The position numbers and the translations under genes were made by a program. Positions 8,131 to 14,949 of a DNA stretch of 64,000 bases are shown piece by piece. This DNA comes from a virus, in the IMG/VR virus record IMGVR_UViG_3300024262_000019, positions 1-64,000 of that record. One strand, given 5' to 3'. The notes beneath the pieces were generated by a model that was not told the DNA's origin, ran no database searches, and was given only the letters and a program-made list of their open reading frames with translations. Each line of letters starts with the position of its first letter. The first letter of the stretch is position 1.

Positions 8131-11100
8131 CTAAACAGGCGTTACCTGAACCTCTATATCGTCAACGTACCAGCCTTCGCCAGTGCCAGCACCCGATGCA
8201 GCACCTGCGGTATCGAATACGAACTCTAGATGATAGTTATCGTCGGCAACAACCATTGCCTGAATATCCTCGCTATATGTCGTGATAGATCCATTTGTTC
8301 CGGTGCCATCCAGACCGAGGGATGCCTTGCCAATCGTGTAGAACAGGCCAGCACCCTTGAAGACTTCCACTCGGACCAGGTCATTTACTAGTCCGGATCG
8401 CATATCTCCGTAGTGCCTAAATCTGATAACCACAGCCGTGTCGGTAGCCAGTAGGCCAAACGCCGGTGATATCAATCTGGACACGGTAGCTATTGCAACC
8501 CCGTCGTAATCGGGGGCAACTGCTCCACCATCACCGAGCCTGCCAACGTCATTCTGACCATAGTTAAATGACTTGAACTGCGTGGACGATCTGTACTCAG
8601 TGATGTGCCACAAGCCAGATGCCGTCCATGTTCCAGCGATAAGAGGATCTGCCCCCGCCAGGTACTCCTCTAAGACATTCTCATTAGTGATGGTAACCTC
8701 GGAGGTGGCTATAATCGGTGCGCTATCTACAGGGATTAGGTCGGCAGGGAATTCATCCTCGTCGAAGTAAGCGGTATACAGCGCATCGTCTGCAGCATAT
8801 TCACTAGACGAAGAGGAAGCCGACATAGCCCATGACGCCAGAGCTGGGCCTGGGTCATAGACGAATGCAGCAATGCGAACATGCCCAGGAATCATCTGCT
8901 CCAGGCGAATGATTAGCCGACTAAGCGCATCACCTTCCAGGGCCTCTGGGTAGTCCAATATAGTATCTGGGCTGATCCGAACTAGAATCGAGCTGGCCCT
9001 ACAGAAATTGCAATCAGTTACGATCTCGCATTTCAGGAAGATATTCGCAGCTCCAACCGCCGGCGGATCTGTAGCAATAATAACAAATTGGTAGGTGGTG
9101 CCAGTCGTATTCTCGAATGACTCCAAGTATGAAACTACGCCATCATTATCTATGAACGCCCAGTTGCCGTAGTCACCTAGTACTGGGTCTGTGAAGGTCT
9201 TGGTTATCCTGTAGCGGCGACCAGTGTAGCCAAGAGTCTGCCTGCCAAGATCCTCTACATCCGTACCAATGCCAGCTATCGTAACCGTGTTAGGGGCTAT
9301 GAACTTAAGCGTCTTCCATGTGACAACGCCAGCCCCAAGCGATGGCACAACGAAGCTAGCCGTCTCAAAGCTATATGTTGAACTGTCTATCCTCTGGAAA
9401 TTTTCAATAACAAAGGTCGCAGCGGACAGATCAACGAACGAACCTTCCGTACCAAACGAAATGCTCATATCGGCAGCCGAAACTATTACTGTGACACGCT
9501 TGTTCGACCCCTCGTCGGCTGTCTGAGTTGCAGAGAGAACCGTCACAGCCTGCGCTGTACTCGGGAATAGGACATCGGAGCACAATAGATCCATCGGTAT
9601 GGCATCCATGGCAACCTCGTCGAACCTAGGACGCCTTGGATCTACCGTGGTAAATATCGTTCCACTGGTTCCACCCGATGGTTGAGTAACGATAAATCCT
9701 GCATTGGAAACCGTCTCAGACCATGTGAGTACATTCCCCGAGGTTCCGGCTACGGTGTTATTGACCGTAATAAAATCCAGAAGTCCGCCGCCGTTGCTGG
9801 CGCTCAAGAAAAGAGAGGCTGCACCATTAATGCTCGCCACCATAATGGTAGCTACGTCAATTGCAGTGGTTGCTCCGCTGATATCAACAGCGATGTTAGC
9901 CCCCGAGACTCCATTGGGAACTTTGTCGAATTCAAAAACAACAATAGGATTTATTCCATCATCCAGTGTGAAGGTTTCACCGTCTATCAGATTTGAATAT
10001 GGAATCGAAAGGATGCCGCCGGATGCTGTAGTTCCGGATGGAAACGAAAATATAGTACTCGACGGAAGACCTAGCGATATCGACTCGATGATGTTGTAGA
10101 GCGGGCTGGCAGATACAAAGTACCCTGCGTACCTGCCAAGAACACTGTAGCCAAGCTCTGTGCCCTTTACGTCCCAAATCTTGTGCGCACTATTTACATA
10201 CGACCGCTGCAGGAACTCCGGGTCGTTCCTGTCCAATTTTATGCCAACGTCGCTGGCCAGGAAGGAGAGGATGTTCTGAGAATTTATCTCTGCGTCCTCT
10301 GAGGGAGGATCATCTTCTTGTGTATATGTGACTCTTATAGAGTCAGCGTCTATCGCCGCCCCGGTATCGTTGTAGATACGTATCTGCCCAGTTGCAACTG
10401 CTCCTACGGACAGATCTATAATACTAGTGTCCGCCAGGTCACCGCCAGGCCGCCCCTCGTTAGTGAATGACCCAGATTTATCTACGCCACTCTCTTTCCA
10501 ACTAACTGTTACGCGATTATTGGCTATGTTTAGCCCGCCGACGTACGACCCCTCCACATTGAATGCGTAAGGAGGTAGTCGGGACCCGTTGTCGGATAAC
10601 GTACTAGGTGACTCAAATATAAATGCACCCGGCCCACCGCCAGTAGGACTGGTGACAATAAATCCAGCATCAGCAACCGTATCAGACCAGGCTACGTCCC
10701 CTTCGACACCTGTAGCTGGATTCGTAATAGTCACAGTCGCTGAGCCACCGGACAGGTTGCTGGCCACCAAGTTCAAAGGAGTAGCAGCGTTGATCGCAGT
10801 AACCATTGCATCAGCAACGGTGATACCTGATGTTGCAAGGGATATATCAACGGCAATATTGGCACCGGCTCCGTCTGGAACCTTGTCAAACTCAAAGATA
10901 AGTGCAGGATTTACACCGTCATCCAGGGTAAATGTCTCACCATCTATGAGGCTCGCAGAAGCCACGGCGACGATAGTTCCAATGGAAGGAGTTACCGATG
11001 GGTTCTCCTCAAAAGCATATGTTCCAGAGGCGAATGGAATGAACTCGGTACTCGACTGTCCTATGTTTTGGACAATGATGTGCTTACCCGTAGGTGCCAG

Positions 11101-12327: not shown

Positions 12328-14949
12328 CTACGTCGCCAATTTCTCCAGTTCATCGAAGCGAGACTGGGGAGGCTCAAGGCCACTGACGATCGTAAAGACC
12401 ATCATACCCGGCTTATTCCACTCGTAGATCCCACTATGTAGAGTAATTCCTTCGTTACCCAGGGCTCGACCTAGGCTACTAAAAGCGTAATCGATGTTCT
12501 CCATCGGCACTTCCTCAAGCACATCATCGTGAGCCACGACGATAGCTCCAGCCATATTGGCCTTGTTGAGGTCAAACCCATCGGCCAGGAGAGATCCAGT
12601 CAGGTTCTCTCGAACGGCCTGGCTGATATCCTCCTTCTCCTCCCACTCATCCACCCGAGTCATGCCGAAAATCAGGATGCCATTCCTCAGGACCGACCTA
12701 AAATCAGCCCTGTCAAATGTGTTTCCAGTTACATATACGGTTCCTTTGCGACGAGCGACGAAATAAGTATTTGGAACAACTGGACACCACACCCCCTGCT
12801 TCGCATCAAATTCTCGCACATGCTGCTTCTGAATCTGAGTCGTATGCCTTCGCAGAATCGTCGATATCCATACACCATCCATCTTCGGAATATTGCTTAG
12901 CTTATCAGACTTAGGCTCATACTCGCTCATATCCCTCCAGCGAGATGTTGATGCCCACCCCGATAAAGTACAAAGCATCTGAAAAGCATCAACCCCAGCT
13001 TCTTTTCCAGACGTAAAACATCGCTGACGACCGTCGGTTCCAGCTAGATTCCCATCCCCAAGCCTCATCGACTCCAGCATAATCTTAGCCTGGGAAGATG
13101 TTAGACGGCATGCAACATCTGGCGTCAGAGTTCGCTCAGGAAACAACGCATTCAAAATCTCTGCAGTGGAGCGATCTAGACGCCACACAACCTGACCGCT
13201 CGCCTCCCTGACACCTCGATGGTCGCAGCAATCCAAGCGATTCATGAGGCCATCAATCCTTGCAACCTTGCCCGGATTTGCACGCTCGCTTTGATAGATA
13301 AATGCACGAGCACGATCCCCCGCGTAGGTCCTGTTTTTTTGAAGTTTAATTTCCTTCTCTGGGAATACTTGGCAAGTACCGTCAGTGAGAAACCATCCCA
13401 TCAACTCCACGAAGTCGTCAGTCCAAGGCGAAGATCTTGGACCTATATACGTTCCTGTCCTATGAATTCGGTCATGACCAGACGTTGAAAGATCTTTTGT
13501 AACCTTACATAGATCATTACCCTTGTAGTCAGTCACGAGCCAGCGGTGATCCGGAGTTGCGACAGCGCTCAGTGTGCGAGTCTCGATCTCTACCAATTTA
13601 CCCTCATACTCTGGCCAAAGCTTAAGATCAGTCATACCTTGCCATTCCAATTCACCTGATTCAGCATTCTTGGTGAGCAAGACATCGCCTGGATCTAAAT
13701 CGAACCCCTTAACCCACCCACGCTGAGTCAGTGCCTCCGTTTCTGCATCAAGACAGTTGTATTCACTGTCCTGGGCCGCCAGAAGGTTGAAGGTATGCAG
13801 AATTGCTGCAAAATTCTGGTTCGCAACCGGCCAGAATTTCTTCACCGGCAAGCCTGGGTACAGGTCGTGGATTTTGGCGTTATCGACAATGACCAGAGTG
13901 CTGATCTTATTTGCCTCTACAAGCTCCACAGCCTGCTGCAAGGCCATCCTAGCGTTCGCCTGCACCCTTGAGCCCTCGGTGCGCTTAGGCATCGTCATGA
14001 TGATTCCTAAGTGCTTCTCGATAGGCTTCTCGACATTGGTTGAGTCCCCATACTCCTTCATGGCTTTCAGAAGCACTGGCCATGATCCAGTCCCAGACCC
14101 TCCGCCAGCGCCAACGCAGACAAACATCTGCTCCACGCCCTCGCCCCAGGAGCGCATGAACAAGTCCATAATCTTCTCGTAGCACTCCTTGGCCGCAAGC
14201 CGGCCCTGCTCTGGATCCTTACCAGCCCCACCACGATCCTTGCCGATGACAAGCTTATCCTTGATGGTCAGCGACGATAGATCCTGCTCAGTCGTATTTA
14301 CCGCACAAACCCGGCTATAGCCCATGTCGTAGAACGCCTGAGCTATCCGCCCGCCACCCTGGCCTGCGCCAACAAAAGCCATCTGAACCGCTGCATTGAA
14401 CTTGTCCTTCTTGCCCTCTTTTTTCTTGCCCTGGTACTGTTCAAGATTGGCACCGGGAATATCGATTCCAGTACCAGAGATAGCTGGCTCAGGCGCCTCG
14501 GAAACCAATTGAGCCTCTGGATCTTTGGCTTTCTTTTTCCTCGTAGGAGGAGCGTTGTAGAGAGGATCTGTGAAGTCGGGAAGGTCGTTACTCATTGGTT
14601 CTTCTTTCTCATCCTGCGCGATTACTGGCTCGCGCTTCTCATCGGGAGATTCTCTGGCTGGTGTGAACTTCTTCTGCACCTCAGCAATTCGAGGAGCCTC
14701 GGGAGAGTCCTTTTCATATGGCTGAATGCTAATCCGTATCACATCACGTTGCACTAACTGCTGCAATAGATCTGCTACCTTAAAGCCAGATCGATGAGGC
14801 CACTGGGACTCTATCTGTTCCACGGTGCATACCGCATCAACCGACGCACCGGCGGGTATCGCCAGCATGTGAAATGGCGGTGGAAGGTCCACCCCGCCAA
14901 GCTCACAGATATCCGAAGCTGATATATTTCTTATGGTTACGATTATCAT
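12328..14949 (-). CDS. Tubulin/FtsZ-like GTPase with in-frame intein and N-terminal extension
   Basis: An 873-residue precursor. Residues 1-80 are a small beta-rich domain and 81-185 a Pro/Glu/Lys-rich linker. The GTPase starts near residue 188 with a nucleotide-binding G-rich loop (GAGQGGG, 194-200), then the tubulin signature GAGGGSGTGS (280-289). Residues 399-743 are an intein. After splicing, Asn398 joins Thr744, giving N-TFDRADF, which fits the FtsZ/tubulin T7 loop whose acidic residues drive GTP hydrolysis in the next subunit. The host protein would be 528 residues. Known relatives form cytoskeletal filaments: FtsZ in division, PhuZ in phage nucleus centring, TubZ in plasmid segregation. 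Which role applies here is unknown. It is embedded in tail-fibre genes. Confidence 0.9.
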   Translation of the reverse strand: MIIVTIRNISASDICELGGVDLPPPFHMLAIPAGASVDAVCTVEQIESQWPHRSGFKVADLLQQLVQRDVIRISIQPYEKDSPEAPRIAEVQKKFTPARESPDEKREPVIAQDEKEEPMSNDLPDFTDPLYNAPPTRKKKAKDPEAQLVSEAPEPAISGTGIDIPGANLEQYQGKKKEGKKDKFNAAVQMAFVGAGQGGGRIAQAFYDMGYSRVCAVNTTEQDLSSLTIKDKLVIGKDRGGAGKDPEQGRLAAKECYEKIMDLFMRSWGEGVEQMFVCVGAGGGSGTGSWPVLLKAMKEYGDSTNVEKPIEKHLGIIMTMPKRTEGSRVQANARMALQQAVELVEANKISTLVIVDNAKIHDLYPGLPVKKFWPVANQNFAAILHTFNLLAAQDSEYNCLDAETEALTQRGWVKGFDLDPGDVLLTKNAESGELEWQGMTDLKLWPEYEGKLVEIETRTLSAVATPDHRWLVTDYKGNDLCKVTKDLSTSGHDRIHRTGTYIGPRSSPWTDDFVELMGWFLTDGTCQVFPEKEIKLQKNRTYAGDRARAFIYQSERANPGKVARIDGLMNRLDCCDHRGVREASGQVVWRLDRSTAEILNALFPERTLTPDVACRLTSSQAKIMLESMRLGDGNLAGTDGRQRCFTSGKEAGVDAFQMLCTLSGWASTSRWRDMSEYEPKSDKLSNIPKMDGVWISTILRRHTTQIQKQHVREFDAKQGVWCPVVPNTYFVARRKGTVYVTGNTFDRADFRSVLRNGILIFGMTRVDEWEEKEDISQAVRENLTGSLLADGFDLNKANMAGAIVVAHDDVLEEVPMENIDYAFSSLGRALGNEGITLHSGIYEWNKPGMMVFTIVSGLEPPQSRFDELEKLAT
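12721..13755 (-). mobile_element. Intein in the tubulin-like gene, LAGLIDADG (DOD) type
   Basis: A 345-residue intein, Cys399 to Asn743 of the precursor. The N-terminal splice block opens CLDAETEALT; a TPDHRW block follows near residue 465; the C-terminal blocks read NTYFVARRKG and VYVTGN, followed by Thr as the +1 nucleophile. Between them are two motifs like those of homing endonucleases: MGWFLTDG (516-523) and LESMRLGDGN (625-634). The penultimate residue is Gly, not the usual His, which is known in some active inteins. Whether the endonuclease still cuts cannot be told. Confidence 0.92.

Follow-up and report, generated by a model that had tools for sequence, protein, structure and literature searches.

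A probable homing intein in the T7 catalytic loop of a phage TubZ/FtsZ-like GTPase

Described relatives of the protein and of its insert

The catalytic residues in the T7 loop of tubulins and FtsZ act on the GTP of the neighbouring subunit. In SaFtsZ, each of the T7 changes N208L, D210N and D213N abolishes assembly (PMC8936486), while catalytic T7 mutants of PhuZ still make filaments, but static ones (PMC7950403). Inteins generally insert near active sites, at a mean of 8.3 Å from active-site residues (PMC3359363), and a location of the T7 type is an ordinary choice of site for them (PMC3359363; PMC5050341). We describe here a phage tubulin gene that very probably has such an intein in exactly this loop. 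The window analysed is a stretch of 64,000 nucleotides of the virus record IMGVR_UViG_3300024262_000019.

Two described groups of tubulins resemble the host protein. TubZ from plasmids of the Bacillus group has the same TubZ-like C-terminal domain and a T7 loop of the F-D-x-x-D/E type, but identity is only about 25%, and the gene in the window belongs to a tail/late gene cluster. No small TubR-type gene was recognised adjoining the tubulin; those neighbouring genes that were scanned gave no Pfam match. PhuZ of phiKZ-like phages is also a phage tubulin, with an FDR-x-E/D T7 loop, but the window tubulin gives only a weak profile match to it (phrog_4733, E 0.021). A tblastn search with PhuZ matched 179 places in 179 phage records, which gives no indication that an insert of intein size interrupts these PhuZ relatives.

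The insert also has described relatives. Inteins in phage DNA polymerase I (IMG/VR L017, L018, L020-L023; Phage DP SC_2_H4_2017, MT121960) belong to the same intein family, and those from IMG/VR share 45-51% aa identity with the tubulin intein. Both kinds have Cys1 together with a Trp-Cys-Thr (WCT) triad, LAGLIDADG motifs, N at -1 and T/S at +1. They differ in that the polymerase inteins occupy the host motif N-T/SPVQGTA (here and below, a hyphen within host letters marks the joint), whereas the tubulin inteins form a clade of their own. Inteins of actinobacteriophages (portal, TerL and DNA methylase; Woes, GMA3, Bobi) are homologous over their full length at 26-29% identity and likewise have Cys1, the block F Cys, the block G Thr and a penultimate Gly, but their host genes encode nucleic-acid or packaging proteins. 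In the inteins of the Bobi methylase and of Synechococcus phage B23, the C and T of the triad are kept and Val stands at B:12 (no Trp).

The tubulin gene and the position of the joint

The window is part of a 110,162-base virus record with genes for tail sheath, baseplate, capsid and protease, and the tubulin sits in the late (structural) gene cluster; the related contig L007 has the same gene order past the tubulin. The ORF extends over 12331-14949 (minus strand) and encodes 873 aa. Its features are as follows.

13756..14949, minus strand: N-extein, residues 1-398; N-terminal extension of about 118 aa, linker and tubulin/FtsZ GTPase domain
14083..14112, minus strand: tubulin signature loop T4, GAGGGSGTGS, residues 280-289, aligned with FtsZ/TubZ
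13774..13836, minus strand: equivalent of helix H7, residues 372-392, directly ahead of the T7 loop (L008 model and alignment)
12721..13755, minus strand: intein, Cys399-Asn743, 345 aa; exact in-frame insertion relative to six distinct orthologues without insert; L006 and L016 have allelic inteins; homologues in other phage genes
13726..13755, minus strand: block A, CLDAETEALT, with Cys1, invariant in 18/18 aligned inteins
13540..13557, minus strand: block B, TPDHRW, with T67, H70 (B:10) and W72 (B:12, W of WCT), from the intein alignment
13378..13404, minus strand: LAGLIDADG motif 1 (block C), LMGWFLTDG, acid D125 (alignment; Foldseek)
13051..13077, minus strand: LAGLIDADG motif 2 (block E), LESMRLGDG, acid D234, invariant in 18/18 aligned inteins
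12775..12792, minus strand: block F, VWCPVV, with C324 (F:4, C of WCT), invariant in 18/18 aligned inteins
12721..12738, minus strand: block G, VYVTGN, with T343 (G:5, T of WCT), penultimate Gly and terminal Asn743, from the intein alignment
12700..12720, minus strand: T7 loop past the joint, +1 Thr744, F, D746, R, A, D749, F (FtsZ/TubZ/PhuZ comparison)
12331..12720, minus strand: C-extein, residues 744-873, TubZ-like C-terminal domain (PF22453)

The intein thus covers residues 399-743 (13755..12721, 1035 bases). An earlier note on this DNA had placed an intein at 12721-13755 in a phage tubulin/FtsZ-like GTPase, with tubulin motifs on both sides and a spliced protein of 528 residues. The ends proved exact to the base, and the computed spliced product has 398 + 130 = 528 aa. 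The motifs were recovered as PF00091 on the N-extein (E 4.8e-17, 63.3 bits, cut-off 33) and PF22453, TubZ-like_C, on the C-extein (E 1.5e-7, 31.9 bits, cut-off 26). TIGR00065 (FtsZ) also matches the N-extein (E 3.1e-23), but the score is far under the equivalog cut-off, so the protein is a relative of FtsZ and not FtsZ itself. It combines the GTPase domain, the GGGSGTGS loop and the T7 acids (FDRAD) of the tubulin/FtsZ superfamily with the C-terminal domain of TubZ. Judged by these Pfam and TIGR00065 matches, which bear out the identity proposed for the host, the gene is that of a TubZ/FtsZ-like tubulin GTPase; the phage is a contractile-tailed one. All sequences of this tubulin family are from metagenome contigs.

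The N-terminal stretch of about 118 aa (window 14572-14949) is fused in 3/9 family members: it is in frame in the window tubulin, L006 and L007, and absent from L009-L013. Internal Met119 (MSNDLPDF) aligns with the start region of the shorter tubulin relatives, and an AAGGAG-like site lies ahead of its equivalent in L007/L008. It is possible that two forms of the protein exist.

The same note had put the joint in the T7 loop and asked for a comparison with FtsZ, TubZ, PhuZ and CetZ. In a profile alignment to solved FtsZ structures, the joint comes to stand opposite the N-x-D-x-A-D of the T7 loop. The loop reads YN-TFDRAD in the window protein, ENHFDSSE and SNFDRTD in plasmid TubZ, VCFDRQE in PhuZ and INLDFAD in FtsZ, and this comparison points to D746 and D749 as the two catalytic acids. 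In the model of the uninvaded protein L008, helices 254-275 and 287-294 flank the joint, in H7-T7-H8 order, with low confidence from the T7 loop onward; the fold of the uninvaded orthologue matches FtsZ, CetZ and TubZ. Alignment, helix placement and motif comparison agree in assigning the joint to the T7 loop, by these letters two residues ahead of the catalytic pair D746/D749, and CetZ enters the comparison through the fold match. The spacing of the Asn varies, since it stands two residues before the Asp in FtsZ, and three before it in the window protein and likewise in two TubZ. Either N398 or Thr744 could be the counterpart of FtsZ Asn208.

With 345 residues inside the T7 loop, the unspliced precursor would plausibly have no GTPase activity and probably would not assemble. 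Removal of the insert, as the earlier note had also pointed out, would restore N-TFDRAD, and YN-TFDRAD is indeed the loop encoded by the uninvaded relatives.

The insert as an intein and its splicing chemistry

Six distinct uninvaded tubulin orthologues were found in IMG/VR (L007/L008, L009, L010 (=L015), L011, L012, L013), all continuous across the joint (YN-TFD). The tubulins of two other phages, L006 (=L014, L026) and L016, have allelic inteins at the same base. The tubulin is present in 9/9 family contigs and the intein in 3/9, and a search of all nine contigs found it only at the tubulin joint, where the nucleotides are AAC-ACN in 9/9. When the whole protein was compared by tblastn with 50,697 phage records, 193 records matched; among the matches listed, all lie in residues 387-768, with ends mostly at 397-399 and 743-746. 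Residues 399-744 as a query matched inteins with matching ends in unrelated phage genes (E down to 3e-39), the genes with related inteins being those for DNA polymerase I, portal, terminase and methylase, and the intein aligns with its relatives over its full length. Matching ends, allelic inteins and clean empty orthologues together place the insertion well beyond chance. Scans of genome contigs with the tubulin and with the intein found no bacterial or archaeal relative.

The splice blocks that the earlier note read at the two ends (CLDAETEALT; YVTGN plus Thr) contain positions that are invariant in the aligned inteins. Blocks F and G read VWCPVVPNTYFVARRKGTVYVTGN, followed by Thr744. The insert has C1, the block B His (H70), the terminal N345 and the +1 Thr744, as well as two LAGLIDADG motifs, each with an acidic residue (LMGWFLTDG, LESMRLGDG). 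C1, H70, C324, T343, N345 and the second LAGLIDADG acid are invariant in 18 aligned inteins, and the acid of the first motif is D or E where that motif is present. The AlphaFold model of the intein (mean pLDDT 75, with unreliable ends of pLDDT <50 at residues 1-19 and 333-345) matches intein-endonuclease folds in Foldseek, these same termini aside (PI-PfuI, E 1.6e-10; TliVMA; PI-SceI; I-DmoI). By its motifs the insert is an intein with splice blocks A, N2, B, F and G and a LAGLIDADG endonuclease part. The proposal of an intein is thus upheld by empty alleles, splice blocks and homologues with matching ends in phage genes.

Two other identities were considered for the insert. An RNA intron was ruled out, as the reading frame stays open across the insert and purifying selection acts on the protein motifs in three genomes. 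The out-of-frame 'ShiLan domain' (PMC11855218) came into question since the intein matches include ShiLan, Bobi and related methylases. It was ruled out as well: the matching stretch is about 330 aa long, in frame and has splice blocks, whereas the ShiLan domain has 202 aa, and the ShiLan methylase gene also has a separate intein besides it (PMC11855218).

It seems very unlikely that the intein is inactive and the tubulin gene disrupted, with a product that is non-functional or in two parts. The Pfam intein models do fail: a scan with Intein_splicing (PF14890) did not report the intein, and Hint_2 stays below its cut-off (16.5 bits against 28.4), so that plain family scans would miss it. This shortfall concerns the sensitivity of the models, not a defining biochemical feature. 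The penultimate His is also absent, its place being taken by Gly. However, a mycobacteriophage intein with a natural penultimate Gly splices, and its change to His leads to a build-up of precursor (PMC5050341); the Gly is therefore no sign of inactivity. Moreover, the catalytic positions known for the intein group are all invariant, the open frame is kept in three separate contigs, and intein and exteins alike are under strong purifying selection.

The chemistry of an active intein could start in two ways. The WCT triad, complete here (Trp B:12, Cys F:4, Thr G:5), defines class 3 inteins, which otherwise have no position-1 nucleophile (PMC3196547, PMC5050341) and for which a phage origin has been proposed (PMC3196547). 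The spacings are identical to those of the class 3 intein MchDnaB1 (H65/W67 and C124/T143 there, H70/W72 and C324/T343 here). Since Cys1 and the full triad occur together, the first nucleophile could be Cys1 or Cys324. The earlier interpretation needs adding to in this respect, as splicing initiated by Cys1 is not a given beside a WCT triad. A class 3 route, with Cys324 attacking first and Cys1 dispensable, would compete with a class 1 route for the first chemical step only. We consider it possible but somewhat doubtful, for although triad and spacings speak for it, Cys1 is invariant in 18/18 aligned inteins, which suggests that it is used. For the same reason the intein was not filed as class 3 despite its triad: class 3 inteins such as MP-Be DnaB and MchDnaB1 are without Cys1 or Ser1. 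In this family of phage inteins, Cys1 as a rule accompanies a complete triad.

Mobility, function and significance

In a tree of 17 inteins, those of the tubulins group in a single clade (100/99), and the host tubulin tree requires at least two gains or losses of the intein. Between the window and L006, aa identity is 86% for the exteins and 75% for the inteins; between the window and L016, it is 71% for both. pN is 0.19-0.21 with synonymous sites saturated, indicating purifying selection on intein and exteins, and the endonuclease part is also under purifying selection (pN 0.22-0.26). One clade, these identities and the low pN fit a single origin at the tubulin site, followed by homing and loss, and the patchy distribution suggests that the intein is probably mobile. 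A jump from the DNA polymerase I site was set aside: the flanks of both sites have N-T/S in common and, in the best-looking pair, L016 and L017, alike bases around AAC-ACG, a likeness that may be due to chance. Any direction of transfer from the polymerase inteins would be a guess. Two genes past the intein-bearing tubulin of L006, in the structural cluster, stands a separate ORF (9419-10249) that matches LAGLIDADG_3 and, weakly, HTH.

The same phage record has at least three further inteins, in the following genes (L031, L032):

record 62240-65059, 67851-71492 and 91958-94540, minus strand: T4-like portal, terminase-like ORF and DnaB-like helicase

The portal intein contains HNH, and the other two contain LAGLIDADG_3 and break the motifs GWGK and GVGK, which we read as Walker A (P-loop-like). 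Inteins would thus often target loops that bind nucleotides in this phage, a pattern into which the T7 site falls. As for FtsZ in phage collections, record CAKLQH020000013.1 (L050), labelled Acinetobacter phage, has ftsA, ftsZ and lpxC side by side and looks like bacterial chromosome; the phage FtsZ match H41, a record with these three genes adjoining, likewise looks bacterial and was rejected.

Taken together, the insert is very probably a selfish LAGLIDADG homing intein at a precise T7-loop position, and it has to splice before the composite GTPase site is whole again. In a first step, the 873-aa precursor would be made with the 345-aa insert parting N398 from D746/D749; with its T7 loop split, it should neither form the normal longitudinal interface nor hydrolyse GTP. 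From the motifs, Cys1 or the block F Cys324 would then attack the N398-Cys399 bond, the chain would move to Thr744, and cyclisation of Asn743 would free the intein, leaving a 528-aa tubulin with its loop complete. The freed intein, a two-motif LAGLIDADG endonuclease, would finally cut uninvaded tubulin genes of co-infecting phages, whereby the element would copy itself in.

Splicing could instead be conditional and serve as a timer or switch, with precursor building up and active tubulin being released at a certain infection stage or under stress. The T7 loop is a composite catalytic site, so the insert might keep the protein switched off; purifying selection acts on the intein, and some bacterial inteins are described as responding to oxidative stress (PMC6195587). 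Nevertheless, this seems quite unlikely. The intein is missing from 6/9 orthologues, so tubulin function does not depend on it; inteins generally insert close to active sites (PMC3359363), as the two in P-loop-like motifs of the same phage also do; and the sequence indicates no trigger. The suggestion of the earlier note that splicing could time or gate polymer assembly during infection thus found no support in the analysis. We likewise give little credence to a splicing-gated cytoskeleton, in which the intein would keep the tubulin inactive until the T7 loop is completed and the splicing rate would set filament timing, through a Cys1 plus Trp-Cys-Thr mechanism distinct from both plain class 1 and class 3.

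For the selfish homing intein that we favour, what is new is the host protein, the kind of intein itself being already known. The earlier remark that an intein in a phage tubulin is new agrees with our searches, which found none in any tubulin/FtsZ protein in the full text of 5.39 million open-access papers (subscription papers lay outside this scope), nor in the 179 records of PhuZ relatives. Within the open literature and the collections searched, this appears to be the first intein in a filament protein of the tubulin/FtsZ type. As the catalytic residues of the T7 loop serve the adjacent subunit, a single assay can link splicing, polymerisation and GTPase activity, with the empty alleles as natural controls for the intein-bearing tubulin.
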